Shown in pieces: positions 3,269 through 23,919 of a stretch of DNA of 24,121 nt (the stretch's first letter is position 1; every line of letters begins with the position of its first letter). Below the pieces are notes generated by a model that saw only the letters and a list, made by a program, of their open reading frames with translations, had not been told where the DNA came from and searched no databases. The DNA comes from a bacterium (GTDB lineage: Bacteria > Lindowbacteria > 2-12-FULL-62-27). Both the position numbers and the translations under genes were made by a program. Where the stretch lies: the NCBI GenBank assembly GCA_016202645.1, contig JACQOF010000117.1, forward strand, positions 1 through 24,121, read 5' to 3'.

Positions 3269-3342
3269 GTATCGGCGTATCGGAGTATCGGTGTATCGGA
3301 GAAAGTGCAGTTCACCTCGCCGATACTCCGATACTCCGATAC
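3269..3342. repeat. Tandem GTATCGG(A) hairpin repeat, copy 1
   Basis: Four head-to-tail 8-9-base units (GTATCGGC/A/T variants, 3269-3300) face three inverted units (CCGATACT type, about 3318-3342) across an 18-base loop. In RNA this would fold into a long stem in the dnaG-rpoD gap. Related structures occur at 18346-18420 and, as one arm, at 23933-23966. Confidence 0.9.
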
Positions 3343-3353
3343 ATTCATATGTA

Positions 3354-5147
3354 TTATCGCGGCGCCAGGGACTGCATCTCTTCCTGCAGTCGCCGGTCCT
3401 CCTCCTGAAGCCGCTTCAGTTCCTCACGGTCCCGGCCGTCCTCCGCCGCCTTCAGCCGCTCCCGGAGCCTCGCGCTCCGGCGCCTGAGCTGCGAGAGTCT
3501 CTGACGGGTCAGAAGGTCCGCGAATCCCTCCGGTGTCAGATACGACTCCGGCATTGGCTTGATCTTAATCTCCGTCAGCCGGTCGATCGCTTGCGGATGG
3601 TCGGCGAACGCCGCCGCCAGTTCCGATACATCCACAACGTGCCGCCGCTCGTACTGCGCCGCCATCGCGTCCCAGACCATCCGGACGACCGGGTCTTCCA
3701 AGTCTCCGTCTTCGATCTGCGCGTAGGCCAATGCCATGAGATTCTCACGCGCAAGGCCGGCGCCGATGATCATCCATTCCCGCCGACGGTCCTCGCCGAA
3801 AACCCGGGCGTCCACGCGCCGCCGGTCCGGGCTTTCTCCGGCCGCGTTTCTTGCCGGATGCGGAGCCCCCCGCGCCGGCGCTGGATCTTCGAATCCCAGC
3901 ATCCGGGTTGATACCGCCGGGCTGAGATCAAACCCGCTCGAAAACGCCCGGACCAAACCCTGCCGAAGAAGACCGTCCTTGAGTCCCGCGCCGGTTTCGG
4001 CGATCAGCGCCGCCGCCTGGCGCTTGCCTTCGAGCGTGTCCGGAAACAGCCCCAACGCCGTTTTGACCAGAACGTCGAACGCGCTTGCCGCCTTGCCGGC
4101 CCGCTCCGCCAATTCCTCCGACCGGCCCTGTTCCACCAGCTCGGCGGGATCTTTCCCTCCCGGAAATTCCAGGACGCGGACTTCGACGTCCCGCGCAAAC
4201 AAAAGCCGCATCGCCCGGACCGCCGCCTTTTTCCCCGGCGCATCCGCGTCATAACCCAGAATCACCGGCAGATGAAACCGCGCGAGAAGATCAGCCTGAA
4301 CGTCGGTGAGGGACGTGCCGAGCGCCGCCAGCGCCGCGAGTCCCGCGCTCTGGGCGTAAATGACGTCGAGATAGCCCTCGACGACAACCGGCGGGCAATC
4401 CGACTAAAGGCGGTTGCGGACGGCGTGGTAGCCGTAAAGAATTGTGCCTTTGTGAAAGATCTCTGTTTCCGCGGTGTTCAGATACTTGGGCCTGCGATCT
4501 GTTTTCCGGATGACACGGCCGCCAAACCCCACCACGCGGCCCGATCCGTCCAGGATCGGAAACATCAGCCTGTCCCGGAACCGGTCCTGCAGTCGGCCTG
4601 AATCTCCGGCCGAGGGCGCTGATAGACCCGCGCCGGTCAAAACTTTTTCGGTGACGCCCTTGTCCATCAGCCGCCGGGTCAACCCGTCCGGCTGGTTCGG
4701 CGCATAGCCGACCCGAAAAATCGCCGCCGACTCCGCCGGCATCCGCCGCTCCGCCAGATACGCCCGGGCGTCTTCACCGTGAGACGACGTCAAAGCCGCC
4801 TCGTAGAATTTCGCGGCCAGTTCCAGCACCTCACGGAGCGGCTCCGCCGCCGATCCCCGGGAATGCCCCTGGGGCCGGACAATGCCGAGCCGGTCGGCGA
4901 GCCGCCGGATGGCCTCCGCGGTATCTATTTTTTCAATGAGCATGACAAAACGGATCAGGTCTCCACCGGTTCCGCATCCAAAACAGTAGAACAGCTGTTT
5001 CTCGGCGCTGACGGTGAAGGAAGGCGTCTTCTCGCTGTGAAACGGACAGCGCGCCTTGAAATCCTTCCCCGCCTTTTTGAGCGGCACCGTCGCCCCGATG
5101 ATCTGGACAATGTCGGCCCGCGCTTTGATCTCCGATATGAGATCCAC
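3354..5147 (-). CDS. dnaG: DNA primase DnaG, interrupted by one in-frame amber codon
   Basis: Replicative primase that lays RNA primers for DNA polymerase III together with the DnaB helicase. Read through, it is 597 codons, normal for the family. The N-terminal zinc ribbon has Cys34, His37, Cys55 and Cys58 (CPFH...CFGC). The RNA-polymerase-like domain has FRDRLMFPI and LYGYHAVR. The TOPRIM domain has Glu257 in VVEGYLDV and Asp300/Asp302 in GYDADAPG, followed by GGKDPAE and a C-terminal helical helicase-binding region. Codon 248 (4404-4406) is TAG, directly before [14 protein letters not shown]. The frame is identical on both sides, so this is a single nonsense codon and not a frameshift. A CAG (Gln) to TAG change is the simplest source. 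Reinitiation at the next GTG (4265) would lose the catalytic Glu. The GTG start at 5147 has GGGGAGG 6 bases upstream. Whether the protein is made is unresolved. Confidence 0.9.
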
Positions 5148-10491: not shown

Positions 10492-10517
10492 GCCGGGGTT
10501 CGGTTAGACTCCCCGGC
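10492..10517. terminator. Possible hairpin between convergent genes
   Basis: GCCGGGG and CCCCGGC form a 7-base GC stem around a 12-base loop that contains the hpnE stop. In the plus direction it is followed only by CTTTG, and in the minus direction by an A run, so the usual T tract is weak or absent. It could still stop convergent transcription. Confidence 0.35.
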
Positions 10518-11826
10518 CTTTGACGCCCGCCAAACATGCGTCGGCGGCGGCGAAGCCGCTTCGCACCGCGCTTTCGATGGTGCCGGGCCAGCCGGTGTCG
10601 ACGTAGTCGCCGGCCAGCCAGAGGCCCGGTTTCGGGGAGATGTTGAATTTGGGGCGCCGGATGCCGGGGCGCGGGGGGAAGGTCGCGTTTTTTTCGATGA
10701 AGGCGACGCCGTGCTCCAGTTTCCCGGCGGCGCCGAGGGCCCGGCGCGTTTCCTCGTCGGCGATCATGACCAGTTCCATCTGCGACTGCCCGGCCCATTC
10801 GTCCGCGCCGCTGATGATGGCCTGGAGATGCTGTTTGCCGTCGATGACGCCTTTGTTGAATATCCACTGGATGGTTCGGTTTTGCACGAGGCAGAAGGAG
10901 AGGTCGGTGAGGACGCGGTCGTAGAGCAGATGGATCGAGATGATGGGCGATCCGCCGAGGATTTCGCCGATCGGGCCCGACATGGATTCAAGCCCGGTCG
11001 ATTCTTCGAGGATGGCCCGGGCCGCCGCCGGGCCCGTCGCGAGGATGATCTGTTTGGCCGTGAGCGCGCTCTGATCGTGAATGTGGATGACGAAATCATC
11101 CGGCCGGATGGAAAGCCGCAGGACACGTTTGCCCGTCTGAAAAACGGCGCCGCCGCGTTCCAGCGCGGGCCGGACGCGCTCGGAGAAAATCGCCGCCAGC
11201 GGCAGGTTCGGGACGCCGATCCGGACGCCCCCGCGCGAGCGGAGAAACGCGTCGATGATCACGCGCCGGACGAACGCATCGCCCATTCCCTCCGGCGGCG
11301 CGTTCAGGGCGCTGATGAGAAAGGGATCCCAGAACATTTTTCGGATCCGATCGGTCTGGCCGATCCGCCGCGCGGTCTCCGGCCACGCCGCATTCCCGCT
11401 CCTCGACATCGCCATCCGCCCGATGCCCCACGCGATCCGAAACTTGTCGGCCAGATCAATCCCCGGATAATTCATGAGAAAGGGGAGCAGATGAAACGGC
11501 GCGGCCAGCGGCCACGTCTTCACGGACTCGACGGCGCCGTTGCCGTTCGAGATGAAAAGACGGTCATGCCAGTTGATGTCCGCCCCCGCGCCTGTGGCCC
11601 GCAAAAATTCCATGGCGGCGGCACAGCAGCCAAGCAGAACGTGCTGGCCGTTGTCGAGCGGCACCGGCCAGTTCGGCAGACGGTAGGACATGGCGCGCCC
11701 GCCGAGAAATCCCTTGAACTCGATGACAAGACACGATACCCCGCGCGCGGCCAGCCGGTGGGCCGCCGCACAGCCGGCGAATCCGCCGCCGATGATGGCG
11801 ACGTCGGGATGGACCGGCTGGGTCAT
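10504..11826 (-). CDS. hpnE: Hydroxysqualene dehydroxylase HpnE
   Basis: Flavin-dependent amine-oxidase-like enzyme that reduces hydroxysqualene to squalene, the third step of the HpnC-HpnD-HpnE route from farnesyl diphosphate. The 440-residue product starts with a Rossmann FAD site (DVAIIGGGFAG, then a strand ending in VIE) and continues with GGRAMSYR, GQHVLLGC, ILATGP and a C-terminal FAD-binding stretch, GLWLAGDYVDTGWPGTIESA. The open frame extends much further upstream, but the ATG at 11826 is the real start. It overlaps the hpnD stop by four bases (ATGA), and the FAD motif begins a few residues later. It is the last gene of the polB-hpnCDE unit. No squalene-hopene cyclase is in the window. 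Confidence 0.93.
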   Translation of the reverse strand: MTQPVHPDVAIIGGGFAGCAAAHRLAARGVSCLVIEFKGFLGGRAMSYRLPNWPVPLDNGQHVLLGCCAAAMEFLRATGAGADINWHDRLFISNGNGAVESVKTWPLAAPFHLLPFLMNYPGIDLADKFRIAWGIGRMAMSRSGNAAWPETARRIGQTDRIRKMFWDPFLISALNAPPEGMGDAFVRRVIIDAFLRSRGGVRIGVPNLPLAAIFSERVRPALERGGAVFQTGKRVLRLSIRPDDFVIHIHDQSALTAKQIILATGPAAARAILEESTGLESMSGPIGEILGGSPIISIHLLYDRVLTDLSFCLVQNRTIQWIFNKGVIDGKQHLQAIISGADEWAGQSQMELVMIADEETRRALGAAGKLEHGVAFIEKNATFPPRPGIRRPKFNISPKPGLWLAGDYVDTGWPGTIESAVRSGFAAADACLAGVKGRGV

Positions 11827-12707
11827 GCGGACGGCGCCGGCCTCCGGCACGGATAGGAGGGCCGGAAGATGACGCACAGAAGAATCAAGGCCTTCTCCAT
11901 CCGGCTGAGCGCCACGCGGCGGCCGAGCACGGGGAAACGGCTCGATTCGATTTTGGTCAGAATCGACGTATAGACCGACGCCATGTGCGCCACCGTTCGC
12001 CTGGCGAAGGCTGAGAGATGCGTCAATAGCGGGTGAGCGCTTTCGAAATGTTCCCTCGCGCGCGCGGCGTTCACGGCGCAGACTTCCAGAAACGCCTCGG
12101 TCGGCGTCCCGGCCAGTATGTCGCTCTCCCGGCACCCCGCTTTTTTCAGATCTTCCAGAGGCAGATAGATCCTCCCCCGGCGCGCGTCTTCGCCGACGTC
12201 CCGGAGAATGTTGGTGAGCTGGAGGGCCACTCCCAGATTTTCCGCCATTGGTCTGACCTGGTCCTGCCGGCATCCAAAGAGTTCCAGGCTGACGAGGCCC
12301 ACACTGGACGCCACCAGCCGGCAATAGTCTTTGAGGGCTAAAAACGTCGGGTAGCGGGACACGGTCAAGTCCCGTTCCGCGCCGTCGAGGATCATCTCCA
12401 GGTAGGCCGGCGTCAGCGAAAATCTCGCGATGGCGTCGGCCAGCGCCGCCATCATCGGACTTGCACCGCCGCCCGCCAAGGCGTCCCGAAATTCCCGTCG
12501 CAGTTTTTCGAGGCGATCCCTCCGCGCCGCATCCTGAACGTCCGCCGCGTCCGCGATGTCGTCGGCCCGCCGCGCGAAAGAGTAAACGGCCGACAGGGCC
12601 TGCCGGCGTTCTTTCGGGAGAAGTTGAATTCCCCAATAAAAATTTGAAGAAGCATGCCGCATCGTTTCCTCGCAGACGGCGTACCCTTCCTGGACCGCCG
12701 GAGTCAT
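11823..12707 (-). CDS. hpnD: Presqualene diphosphate synthase HpnD
   Basis: Condenses two farnesyl diphosphates to presqualene diphosphate. The 294-residue trans-isoprenyl diphosphate synthase-like protein has both Asp-rich magnesium-binding motifs: FARRADDIADA near residue 50, and TNILRDVGEDARRGRIYLPL in the second half. YWGIQLLPKERRQALSAVYSF near the N-terminus is typical of the squalene/phytoene synthase family. The ATG at 12707 overlaps the hpnC stop (ATGA), so the two are translationally coupled; the longer open frame upstream is antisense-like noise inside hpnC. Assignment as HpnD rather than phytoene synthase rests on the hpnC and hpnE neighbours. Confidence 0.92.
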   Translation of the reverse strand: MTPAVQEGYAVCEETMRHASSNFYWGIQLLPKERRQALSAVYSFARRADDIADAADVQDAARRDRLEKLRREFRDALAGGGASPMMAALADAIARFSLTPAYLEMILDGAERDLTVSRYPTFLALKDYCRLVASSVGLVSLELFGCRQDQVRPMAENLGVALQLTNILRDVGEDARRGRIYLPLEDLKKAGCRESDILAGTPTEAFLEVCAVNAARAREHFESAHPLLTHLSAFARRTVAHMASVYTSILTKIESSRFPVLGRRVALSRMEKALILLCVIFRPSYPCRRPAPSA

Positions 12708-13555
12708 GCGGAAAAGGCGAGGACCCTGAGAAACTGGACCGGCAGAAGCCACCGGCTCGGCCAGTCGCGTAGCGTGGGCCGAAATCCGGCGAGCCCCACC
12801 GCCCGCTGGCGCTTGAGGATGGTCCACCCGCCTGCGGCAAACATCCCAACCGGAAATCTCAGCCGAAAGGGCAGACGCCGGATGAGCGGAAACCCGGCGG
12901 TGAGTATTTTTTCCGTCCGGTCGATCTCGTACGACATCAACCGGCGGTATCCCTCGCGGTCTCGCGGCGTCCCGAGATCCGATTCCGTCACGCCAAACCG
13001 CCGCAGGTCCTCCGCCGGAATGTAAACGCGGTCCCGGTCCCGAAGGTCCGCCGCGACGTCCTGCCAGAAATTGATCAACTGAAGCGCGGTGCAGATTCGG
13101 TCGGAGAGCGCGAATCGCTCCGCGTCCCGGTATCCAAAGAGCATCAGCACGAGCCGCCCGACGGGATCGGCGCTCCGGCGGCAATAGTCGAGGACTTCGT
13201 CAAACGTCGCGTATCGGTTTTTTCGGGTGTCCTGCAGGAACGCGTCGATCAAGTCGAGAAACGGGCGCGCCGGCAGGTCATGCCGCCGGATCGTCCGCCC
13301 GAGCGCCTCGAAGATGGGATCCCCGTCGAATGTTCCGGTCTCGATCCGCCGGCGCATGCCCTCCAGGAGCGCGGCCCCCTCCGCCCCGCGGATTTCGTCC
13401 GCGCAGTCGTCCGCCGCGCGCGCGAAGGCGTAGACGGCCGCGACGTCGGGCCGCAGGCGGCGCGGCAGGGTCCGGGAGAGAACCGGGAAGTTCTCGTAGT
13501 GCTCGGCGGCGATATTTTCAATGCGCCATCCGCAATCCCCGATCCGCAATCCCAT
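12704..13555 (-). CDS. hpnC: Hydroxysqualene synthase HpnC
   Basis: Converts presqualene diphosphate to hydroxysqualene. The 283-residue squalene synthase-like protein has HYENFPVLSRTLPRRLRP at its start, the first Asp motif FARAADDCADE and the second, NFWQDVAADLRDRDRVYIP. The ATG at 13555 overlaps the polB stop by one base (TGATG), which implies coupling to the polymerase gene. The first dozen residues (GLRIGDCGWRIEN) come from a tandem ATCCGCAATCC-type repeat on the plus strand rather than from the normal HpnC N-terminus, so the ancestral start may have been overwritten. Catalytic regions are intact. Confidence 0.9.
   Translation of the reverse strand: MGLRIGDCGWRIENIAAEHYENFPVLSRTLPRRLRPDVAAVYAFARAADDCADEIRGAEGAALLEGMRRRIETGTFDGDPIFEALGRTIRRHDLPARPFLDLIDAFLQDTRKNRYATFDEVLDYCRRSADPVGRLVLMLFGYRDAERFALSDRICTALQLINFWQDVAADLRDRDRVYIPAEDLRRFGVTESDLGTPRDREGYRRLMSYEIDRTEKILTAGFPLIRRLPFRLRFPVGMFAAGGWTILKRQRAVGLAGFRPTLRDWPSRWLLPVQFLRVLAFSA
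13528..13553. repeat. ATCCGCAATCC repeat at the hpnC start
   Basis: Two copies of ATCCGCAATCCC separated by CG, at the polB-hpnC junction and translated as the HpnC N-terminus. The same motif occurs inside ssnA near 18989-19007. Confidence 0.7.
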
Positions 13556-15954
13556 CAAAACAGCCCCAGTTGTTCGCGCTCCACGAGGGCGTCCCGGTCG
13601 TAATCGAAATTTTCCAGGACGCGCAGGAACGCGTCGCAAAGTTTGTCGCGGTAGTAGAGGTGATCGGGCGCGTGCGAAAACGCGATGCCGTCGATGTACG
13701 GCTCGACTTGCTGGGGCGTCCGCCGGCTGTTCGTCACGATCCAGGAAACTTTCATCCCGGCCGGAATGTAGACGCCGAACTTCTGCGCCTTCTTCACCGC
13801 CTGCAGGTGCGGCAGGCGGTCCTCCGCGCGGATCACCTCGCCGGTCTTGCGGGTCATGACCTTGTAGGAACTCTCGTCCAACGCGGTCTTGGAAATGACA
13901 AGGTCCGCCAGCGGCAGGCTTCCCTCCGCAACCTGCTTGAGCACCTGCCGGGCGTAGTCCCCGGCGCCGTCGACGTCCTTGTCCATGATTTTTTCAAAGA
14001 GCGCGTCGAGAGACCTGGACAGCAGAGGAAAACTGTCGCCGCGCCGGGTCTCAAACCCGCGCACGACCACTTCACGGACCGGATGAACGACCCGGCCGAA
14101 ATAGCGCTTTTTCATTTTTCCGAGAAAAAGCGGCGACACGACCTTCTCGAACTCGAGCGTCAGCGCCCCGGAACTGAACCGCCCGGAGAGTTTTTCCGCG
14201 AAAGCCAGCGTGCCCTCCAAAGTATTTTCGGGCGAGACGACGAAGACCGAGTCGGTGTCGGAATAGATGACGTTCAGGCCCTCCTCGTCCAGTTTCCCGA
14301 TGATCCCCGTCGTGTATTTCCTCGCCAGCGCCGTGATGCTCCCGCCGATCCGGCGGTCGGTGAAGCGGTAGAAGCGCGATGCGAACACGCCGTAGTGGGC
14401 GTTCGCGAGGATTTTCTGGGCGTTCTGCAGGCTGTTGTAATAGGCCTTCTCCTCCGCGGTCTTCGCCGCCTTCATCTTTTTCTTGCTCTCCCGCCGCGCC
14501 TCCAGCAGACCCTTCATCACCCGCGGCAATATGCCCTCCTTCACCGACGGGTCGAGAAATTTGACGCCGTCGGGCGCCTCGATGGTCCCCTGGTCCGAGA
14601 TGGTCGTAAAGCAGATGTTGTTCTGGATGATGACGCTCGGGTACAGGGACGCGAAGTCAAACACGACGACGTTGTCGTAGAGGCCGGCCTTCGGCTCGTG
14701 GACGTATCCGCCCTCGATCGCCTCCGCGTCGTCGCCGTGCCGGTTGTTCGGGACCACGACTTTTTCGCGGTCCGCGGCGCGGATGAGAAGACTGTCGATG
14801 AGGATGGAGTTGCGGTCGAGGAGACAATCGAAGAGCGGCAGCTGCGCGACGTCCGCCAGGGCCTGGTATTTGTCCAGGACGTGGATGGCCTTGAGGATCT
14901 CATGCGACAGCCGCGTGTCCTGGAGGCAGTACTCCTTGACGAGGCCCGGCCGGGTCTTCCATTCCTCGTCCATCTTCGATGTGTCGACGTCCATCTTGGC
15001 CTTGCCGAGAATCATCTGCGCCATCGCCCCGAGGGTCTCGCGTTTCGGGCGCTTTTCCTTGCGCGCGAAATACCAGGAGTCGACGACGAGCCGCCCCGGA
15101 ATTTCCACGGTCGTGTTGGTGCCTTTGTCGACGAATTTTTTCACCTTCCCCGCGTCCGCGCCGCCGTTTTGCTTGTCCCGCGAATCGGCCCCGCGCCGCC
15201 GGATCAAAACGTCCCGGCCGTTCCGGGCCCATGCGGTCGACACGCCGTGGCGCTCCATCCGGCCGGCGATGACGGGAATGTCGTAGTTGCAGATGTTGTA
15301 GCCCGAGAGAACGTCGACATCCTCCTCGACGATGATTTTGCGGAATTTTTCAAGGATAGATTTCTCTGATCCCTCCAGGATCTGCTCCTCGGTCCGGCCC
15401 TCGTATTCCTTCACGACCCCGATGCAGATGATTTCTCCGGAGGTGAGATTTTCAATGTCAAAGGAGAGGATCCGCAGGGGCACCAGGAACGGATCGGCCG
15501 TGGCGACGCGCTCGGCGTCGATGACCAGGTCCGTCCGGTACGGCTGACGGGCCGCCCGCTCGCGGCCCTCGATGCGGATGTGGCTTCCCAATTGGTTGTC
15601 GTACAGAAAACGGTTCCGGAATACGATGTCGGCCGCCATCGCGCCGTACCGGTCCCGGTAGGTCGGCGTGTCCCCGGGCCGGTGAATGGTAACTTTGTAG
15701 GCGGTGACAGGCTTGCCCTCCCGAAACAGCGTCCGCGGATCAAGACTTCGAACCTCCGGGTCCTTCGCCAGCGCGTCCAGCGTCGACTGCTCCGGTTCGA
15801 TCAAAATGAAGTACGGAAAAAATCCCTTGTAGAGCGCCGTGATCGACCGCCCCTCCCGCGTCCGGCCAAACATCTCAATCAGCGGAAACCGCCCCCCGCT
15901 TTCGTCGCGGTTGGTATAGGTGGCATACAGAAGTTTAAACTCGTGCTGTTCCAT
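13555..15954 (-). CDS. Family B DNA polymerase (archaeal-type PolB)
   Basis: A 799-residue DNA polymerase with proofreading exonuclease. Exo I is SFDIEN (Asp166, Glu168), Exo II GYNICNYD (Asp225) and Exo III YCLQD (Tyr342, Asp346). Polymerase motif A is DFASLYPSVI (Asp433), motif B KILANAHYGVFAS (about 514-526), and motif C YSDTDS (Asp566, Asp568), followed by KKRY. All catalytic residues are present. The length and motif spacing are those of archaeal/viral-type B polymerases, which also occur in a scattered set of bacteria, rather than of enterobacterial Pol II as I know it, but I could not align it. A role in repair or translesion synthesis is an inference. It is first in an operon with hpnC, hpnD and hpnE. 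The ATG is preceded by TAGAGT seven bases upstream, with no ribosome binding site. Confidence 0.95.
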   Translation of the reverse strand: MEQHEFKLLYATYTNRDESGGRFPLIEMFGRTREGRSITALYKGFFPYFILIEPEQSTLDALAKDPEVRSLDPRTLFREGKPVTAYKVTIHRPGDTPTYRDRYGAMAADIVFRNRFLYDNQLGSHIRIEGRERAARQPYRTDLVIDAERVATADPFLVPLRILSFDIENLTSGEIICIGVVKEYEGRTEEQILEGSEKSILEKFRKIIVEEDVDVLSGYNICNYDIPVIAGRMERHGVSTAWARNGRDVLIRRRGADSRDKQNGGADAGKVKKFVDKGTNTTVEIPGRLVVDSWYFARKEKRPKRETLGAMAQMILGKAKMDVDTSKMDEEWKTRPGLVKEYCLQDTRLSHEILKAIHVLDKYQALADVAQLPLFDCLLDRNSILIDSLLIRAADREKVVVPNNRHGDDAEAIEGGYVHEPKAGLYDNVVVFDFASLYPSVIIQNNICFTTISDQGTIEAPDGVKFLDPSVKEGILPRVMKGLLEARRESKKKMKAAKTAEEKAYYNSLQNAQKILANAHYGVFASRFYRFTDRRIGGSITALARKYTTGIIGKLDEEGLNVIYSDTDSVFVVSPENTLEGTLAFAEKLSGRFSSGALTLEFEKVVSPLFLGKMKKRYFGRVVHPVREVVVRGFETRRGDSFPLLSRSLDALFEKIMDKDVDGAGDYARQVLKQVAEGSLPLADLVISKTALDESSYKVMTRKTGEVIRAEDRLPHLQAVKKAQKFGVYIPAGMKVSWIVTNSRRTPQQVEPYIDGIAFSHAPDHLYYRDKLCDAFLRVLENFDYDRDALVEREQLGLF

Positions 15955-16068: not shown

Positions 16069-16908
16069 CTACTTGACGGGCGCCAGCCCGATCACCCGCG
16101 CCGCCGCTTCCGGGCCGTCCACGATCTTGAGCGGGAGCGCGAGGACGACGGCGCCGGTTTCCGGGAGTGCGGCAAGGTTGGCGAGGTTTTCAATCTGGTA
16201 TTTGTCGGCTTCGAAGAGGATGCGGTGGACGTCGAATGTTTTGGAGACGCCGGGATCGAGCGAAAGCGTGTCGATCCCAATCCCGGAAATCCGGCGCTCC
16301 GTCACGAGAAACTCCGCGGCCTCCTTCGAAAATCCCGGAAAATGCATGATCCGGAACTTGTCCGCGTTCCGGTAGGCGCTTTCGCTCCCCCACCGCGCCG
16401 ACCACCCGGTGCGGGCAATGACCAGCGCCCCGGCCGGGATCGGCCCGTTGCGCTTTTCCCACGCGAGGATATCGTCGACGCTCAGGGCGTAGTCCGGGTT
16501 GGCCTCGACCGCCGCCGTCACGTCGACGACAACCGCCGGCGTCACGAGTTCCTCGAGACCCAGATCGGAAATCGACCGCGCGCCCTTCAGAAAATGCGCC
16601 GGCGCGTCAACGTGCGTCCCGAGTCCTTCGTCCATCTCGTAAGCCATCTTCGTGTAGCCCTGATCGTAGTCGATGTAGCGGGTCTTGCTGAACCGCCGCG
16701 AGCCCGGCCATGTCGGACTGTTCTCGTCCAGCGGATGCGTGAGATCCACCGCCGTCCAGGAGTCAAAAAAACCCCGGGGCGGGGTTTCGGAAGTCACCGG
16801 TTTCGGCGTCATCTGCCGCATCGTCGCATAGCACGCCAGCGCCACCATCACGGCGAGAAATCCGAACCGGATGATTTGCGGGGTCCGGCTGTGGCAGTTT
16901 TCTGTCAT
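16069..16908 (-). CDS. Membrane-anchored or exported cyclase-family (PF04199) hydrolase
   Basis: A 279-residue protein of the kynurenine formamidase/isatin hydrolase-like cyclase family: metal-dependent amide or lactone hydrolases. An N-terminal hydrophobic segment (about 14-28, FGFLAVMVALACYA) suggests a signal anchor or signal peptide. The family signature is LTHPLDENSPTWPG followed by GLGTHVDAPAHF, with later GIGIDTLSLDPG and a C-terminal LAALPETGAVVLALPLKI. In typical members the metal motif is HxGTHxD; here the first His position is Gly (GLGTH), so one ligand may be missing or replaced by the nearby Glu. The substrate is unknown. A MITE-like repeat lies just upstream, and GGGGGC precedes the ATG. 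It ends in TAG. Confidence 0.82.
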   Translation of the reverse strand: MTENCHSRTPQIIRFGFLAVMVALACYATMRQMTPKPVTSETPPRGFFDSWTAVDLTHPLDENSPTWPGSRRFSKTRYIDYDQGYTKMAYEMDEGLGTHVDAPAHFLKGARSISDLGLEELVTPAVVVDVTAAVEANPDYALSVDDILAWEKRNGPIPAGALVIARTGWSARWGSESAYRNADKFRIMHFPGFSKEAAEFLVTERRISGIGIDTLSLDPGVSKTFDVHRILFEADKYQIENLANLAALPETGAVVLALPLKIVDGPEAAARVIGLAPVK

Positions 16909-23022: not shown

Positions 23023-23919
23023 ATGCCGGGCCCGTTGGATGATTACTTTTCAAAACACGAGTATCTTCCCTATCAGCCCAGACTCCGCCGGCGTCTGCTG
23101 ACCGTCATCGAAGCCAGCGCCTCGCAGGACGTCCGACGCGCGGCGATTGAAGAAGTGGCCCACATCCAGCCGGTCTTCGCCTTCAATCTCTTCAAATTCG
23201 TCAACTCTCAAGCCTTCAACCTTCAGACCAAAATCATCCGGATCAAGCAGGCGGCGACCCTGCCCGCCTTGGAGGCCCTCGGAAAAATGATCGAAGCCAC
23301 GCCGGAGTACCCGCCCGAACTGGAGCGCCTCTTTTCGCTCGAACGATTCGAGGAGCACGGCCGCGTCACCGCGCTCGCCGTCCTCATCCTCTCCCAGCTT
23401 TCCAAACGCTTCGGGACCGTTCAGCGTGAATGCCTCTACACGGCCGCCATGCTTCACGACATCGGCCGGCTCTTTCTGGTTTCGTCCGATCCCGCCGGCT
23501 ACGCTCGCCTCCTCAATGAATCGGCGGCCCTCGACCCGGAAAAACGCGCGCCGGTCCTGGAGGCCGAAATGAAATATTTCGGCACCGACCATGCCACCCT
23601 CGGGGTCGCGGCGCTGGAACGGATCGGCATCGTCGACAAGGACATCTGCGCCGCCGTCCGGGAACACCATTCGGTCCCTCCGGCGGGCGGCCCGGTCCTC
23701 CTGGCCTACGCCGACCGCGTCGTCAAGCGCTTCGGCATGGGCCCATCGTTTGGCGGCGCCTCTTTCGACGACGCCGAGGACGCGCGGATCAAGATCGGCG
23801 TGGAGGAATCCCTCCACCTCACCATCGGCGAGGCCCTCATGCACATCCTCACGGACATCGACAACCTGAGGGCCGGCGGCATGATCAATTTCAAGAACTT
23901 GGCCGGCGACGTCGTGTAG
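23023..23919 (+). CDS. HDOD-domain protein with intact HD motif
   Basis: A 298-residue cytoplasmic protein of the HDOD/HD-hydrolase type, usually linked to signalling. The first part (about 15-100) is helical without recognisable motifs. The HD site follows as AAMLHDIGRLFL (His145, Asp146). Then come DHATLGVAALERIGI (His190) and AVREHHS (His215, His216), and LAYADRVVKRFG. The HD residues and downstream histidines look adequate for metal binding, unlike many degenerate HDOD proteins, so phosphohydrolase activity is possible. The start is ATG 23023, six bases after the previous stop; only a weak AAAGA precedes it. It ends in TAG, with a TGA three codons later. Confidence 0.8.
   Translation: MPGPLDDYFSKHEYLPYQPRLRRRLLTVIEASASQDVRRAAIEEVAHIQPVFAFNLFKFVNSQAFNLQTKIIRIKQAATLPALEALGKMIEATPEYPPELERLFSLERFEEHGRVTALAVLILSQLSKRFGTVQRECLYTAAMLHDIGRLFLVSSDPAGYARLLNESAALDPEKRAPVLEAEMKYFGTDHATLGVAALERIGIVDKDICAAVREHHSVPPAGGPVLLAYADRVVKRFGMGPSFGGASFDDAEDARIKIGVEESLHLTIGEALMHILTDIDNLRAGGMINFKNLAGDVV

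Follow-up and report, generated by a model that had tools for sequence, protein, structure and literature searches.

In the assembled sequence, dnaG, the gene encoding the DNA primase, is interrupted by one in-frame TAG. This is very probably an isolated nonsense change of one base, affecting a gene otherwise normal and constrained. A consensus error of the draft bin would be the most likely origin, probably a change from TCG to TAG (C to A), and the next possibility would be a private or minority-strain nonsense allele caught in the consensus; in the living organism TAG would be a stop, and a sense codon, probably for Ser, would stand at this site of dnaG. The analysis shows that the site is isolated, that TAG serves as a normal terminator in the bin, and that similar breaks, caused by TAA, are present in other genes. 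The TAG is present in the assembled sequence, but most likely does not correspond to a biological feature.

The window, meaning the whole stretch of 24,121 nucleotides analyzed, is an entire contig (C86); the bin to which it belongs measures 2.92 Mb, is made of 146 contigs, and is 82% complete and 0.7% contaminated. Two genomes of the same family were used for comparison: Candidatus Lindowbacteria RIFCSPLOWO2_12_FULL_62_27 (G001) and a second one, indicated as G002. A scan of the genome collection for relatives returned one same-family genome, G001 itself, and none closer. The features of the interrupted gene are reported in Table 1.

Table 1. Features of the interrupted dnaG, in positions of the window.
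Feature	Position	Strand	Basis
dnaG (DNA primase) frame, GTG to TAA, with one interruption	3354..5147	-	translation; TIGR01391 and Pfam Zn_ribbon_DnaG, DNAG_N and Toprim matches
alternative TTG start of dnaG	5162	-	
in-frame TAG: residue 248 from the GTG (5147), 253 from the TTG (5162)	4404..4406 (4406-4404)	-	dnaG translation; Ser TCC/TCG in alignment with two same-family relatives; variable column, outside all motifs
5' part, 247 codons, encoding the zinc-binding and N-terminal core domains; would be the whole product if TAG terminates	4407..5147	-	profile and Pfam matches
3' part, encoding the TOPRIM domain (motifs EGYLDV, DAD, GKDPAE) and the C-terminal region; no stop inside	3354..4403	-	
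longest restart ORF 3' of the TAG, GTG start; without the catalytic Glu	3354..4265	-	

The presence of a TAG at codon 248 of the assembled gene, on the minus strand, and the continuity of the frame on both sides of it, are as the original prediction had described them. The TAG, found in the context AAC CGC CTT TAG TCG GAT TGC CCG CCG, is the sole internal stop in 602 codons, and the coding signal is strong on either side. The two halves match different portions of one profile, TIGR01391 (positions 6-251 before the TAG, 260-409 after it); when the TAG is read through, a single match is obtained, covering positions 6-409 with an E value of 1.3e-108. The Pfam zinc ribbon and DNAG_N domains are upstream of the TAG, while TOPRIM is downstream, so termination at this codon would cost the primase its catalytic domain, including the catalytic Glu, in agreement with what had been anticipated. 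Two ways around this loss were considered and rejected. A split gene with an internal restart would require a suitable start codon, and the first candidate downstream of the TAG (ATG, GTG and TTG being considered) lies 46 codons away, beyond EGYLDV: a two-piece primase is therefore not credible, nor is the restart ORF of Table 1 as a second polypeptide. A second primase gene, for which a check had also been proposed, is ruled out in the bin, where dnaG gives one match only.

The dnaG genes of the two relatives are uninterrupted. They are 60% and 56% identical to the interrupted one, about 60% being the highest dnaG identity among the genomes available, and carry a Ser at the TAG site, encoded by TCC and TCG: the relatives thus feature a sense codon where a search for the same TAG had been proposed. 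On a wider scale, 59 of the 60 genomes searched, including the source genome, gave a dnaG match, and an in-frame stop is present in none of the other main matches. The column corresponding to the TAG is variable across 79 aligned sequences, where the two relatives are counted again when a genome occurs twice: 45 Arg, 6 Ser, 5 Met, 4 Glu, 4 Ala, and others. A single C-to-A change converts TCG to TAG and, given the Ser codons of the relatives, Ser TCG appears a likelier predecessor than Gln CAG, which had been proposed as the simplest ancestral codon; Gln CAG would be a possible predecessor, although not the best guess.

Downstream of the TAG, the TOPRIM domain (92 columns) is 70% identical to that of G001 and 68% to that of G002, the two relatives being 68% identical to each other. 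The domain is therefore as conserved as it is between the relatives, and such an unrelaxed constraint indicates that the stop, unless absent from the real genome, arose very recently.

The use of TAG as a terminator was evaluated by a simple codon-usage gene caller on 741 kb of sequence, sampled as 52 stretches and corresponding to about 25% of the bin, with a GC content of 59.5%. Of the 596 genes called, 365 end in TGA, 116 in TAA and 115 in TAG: the last, as a check of TAG frequency had been suggested, amounts to about 19% over this sample, with no sign of avoidance. TAG is found near the natural ends of the conserved frr, sdhA and trmFO genes. Since it ends about one fifth of the called genes, conserved ones included, TAG is an ordinary terminator. 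A coding signal on both sides was observed for 11 TAG sites, and dnaG is the only one judged, on reading the sample, to be an interrupted gene; in-frame TAGs in many conserved genes were not seen in the 741 kb. Most of the other ten sites look like ordinary in-frame neighbours: for three of four TAG-separated pairs, NCBIfam families are recognized on both sides (frr/uppS, sdhA/sdhB, trmFO/xerC), while for the fourth atpF is recognized after the TAG. Within the window, present gene calls give two further genes ending in TAG (a cyclase, 16069-16908, and an HDOD gene, 23023-23919), not the three counted originally.

The same 741 kb were screened for coding sequences running through a stop. The single-copy thiG (L159:5665-6534, contig C4) contains one in-frame TAA, at C4:6157-6159; one Pfam ThiG match (7.6e-111) spans it, and the gene is 75-78% identical to those of both relatives, which have Tyr TAC at the site. 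A NodU-type carbamoyltransferase (L186:1-1527, minus strand, contig C116) has an in-frame TAA at C116:190-192, where four of seven homologues have Lys AAA; this break is located close to the end of its contig and concerns a paralogous family, and it supports the reading less strongly than that of thiG. About a quarter of the genome thus contains three isolated stops, of two types; each replaces a different residue, and each could derive by one substitution from a codon present in homologues. No single decoding change fits such a set, which points to base errors at scattered sites or to private nonsense mutations. For thiG the likely change (TAC to TAA) is C to A, as it is for dnaG (TCG to TAG), a coincidence noted in two cases only. 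At L190:12639 (contig C136), a family 4 glycosyltransferase frame follows a TAA, its first 40 codons being devoid of ATG, GTG or TTG; it is possibly another damaged gene start, or a case of an unusual start codon.

The signs of a point nonsense change or base error are therefore found together: a single stop that one substitution would turn into a sense codon, uninterrupted genes in the relatives, and TAA breaks in other genes of the assembly. That the base is an error, rather than a real private mutation, is the most likely reading. A genuine nonsense allele, derived from a dead or minority strain, from a population variant entering the consensus, or from a recent pseudogene in a lineage provided with another primase, comes second and is improbable. 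Point nonsense breaks in at least three genes within a quarter of the genome would fit it; however, dnaG is normally essential, the bin offers no second copy, and TOPRIM shows no relaxation. An essential, single-copy dnaG without decay speaks for a sequence error more than for a pseudogene.

A remote third, very unlikely, is a real nonsense mutation whose effect would be overcome by a natural amber suppressor tRNA or by efficient readthrough. The site tolerates many residues, so almost any inserted amino acid would restore the primase, and the gene is single-copy with a conserved downstream part. In the assembled part of the bin, however, a tRNA with a CUA anticodon was not found by the tRNA model, ARAGORN or a pattern scan, nor is one present among the about 30 tRNAs identified by anticodon. 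The partial tRNAs of the bin read as Lys, Ala, Pro and Gly, and scanning for a CUA anticodon loop gave two hits, which coincide with genes for tRNA-Arg (UCU) and tRNA-Gln (CUG). Nor did the bin contain a tRNA-Pyl-like match or a PylS: the best PylS_Cterm match scores 23.7 bits against a cut-off of 178, and the weak matches, all far below the cut-off, fall within other, longer reading frames and were rejected. The proposed search for a suppressor tRNA or pylS/pylT has thus a negative outcome in a bin which is 82% complete and has an incomplete tRNA set. A suppressor tRNA located in the unassembled part of the genome, reading UAG in dnaG with low efficiency and making primase levels dependent on readthrough, has a slighter chance still. 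Moreover, an amber suppressor would not account for the TAA in thiG and in the carbamoyltransferase, and TAG is a common stop in the bin.

A lineage-wide reassignment of TAG to Gln, Pyl, Ser or another amino acid has next to no probability: the one point in its favour, the lack of RF1 (prfA) in a bin where RF2 is present and whose two relatives both have RF1, is weakened by the concurrent absence of prmC and murA, which adjoin prfA in both relatives, and the reading is contradicted by the use of TAG as a stop for about a fifth of the sampled genes, by dnaG being the only two-sided site judged to be an interrupted gene and by the lack of a PylS above the cut-off. With the prmC and murA queries, the other relative is recovered at 64% and 78% identity. 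The missing RF1 would hence be part of a missing block, attributable to the incompleteness of the assembly, and was not taken as a sign of recoding.

Among the options listed in the original prediction, an error or a private mutation is therefore favoured, while suppression is opposed by the tRNA and PylS searches and by the TAA breaks, and reassignment by the frequency of TAG as a stop. The combination which had been associated with an error or a private mutation, namely a sense codon in the relatives and no suppressor tRNA, is what the assembled part of the bin displays.

An in-frame stop in a critical gene is the classic first clue to codon reassignment. In this respect the dnaG TAG resembles the cases of UGA to Gly (Absconditabacteria, Gracilibacteria) and UGA to Trp (Mycoplasmatales and others); here, in contrast, one gene and not many is interrupted by the codon in question, TAG ends about 19% of the genes called, and a decoding tRNA was not found. 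An in-frame UAG is also shared with pyrrolysine decoding, from which the present case differs for the sub-threshold PylS matches, the lack of a CUA tRNA among those found, and the Ser of the relatives. Also comparable are the yeast genomes screened by Codetta, in a work which warns that in-frame stops may be spurious in draft genomes and pseudogenes, attributes eight such inferences to pseudogenes, and reports that the bacterial stop reassignments known at that time were all of UGA (PMC8629427). In both situations a conserved gene is interrupted by a lone in-frame stop, which a single substitution separates from a sense codon, and a suppressor tRNA was not found; dnaG differs in being normally essential, single-copy and undecayed. 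A literature search on premature stops in draft genomes returned nothing directly useful.

The TAG would matter only if real and read through: an essential gene dependent on amber readthrough would be remarkable, if true. Before recoding is called from one stop in a draft genome, other stop types should be looked for in other genes of that assembly, and a missing release factor should be checked for belonging to a missing block.

A few other features were observed. In the window, positions 10504-13639 contain a cluster resembling the hopanoid genes hpnC, hpnD and hpnE, named by reading alone, adjoined by a family B DNA polymerase (13555-15954). Broken tRNA copies are found at L139:515-583 and L138:501-555; a broken tRNA-Gly copy, without a normal T arm, lies upstream of an intact tRNA-Gly, and a broken tRNA-Lys copy has its 3' part replaced. 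A short unit like CGATACTC is repeated in arrays, which form long intergenic hairpins, at L138:383-508 (contig C71) and near positions 3318-3350 of the window; the Rfam matches to MIR8670 and mir-2024 on this repeat are probably chance hits.
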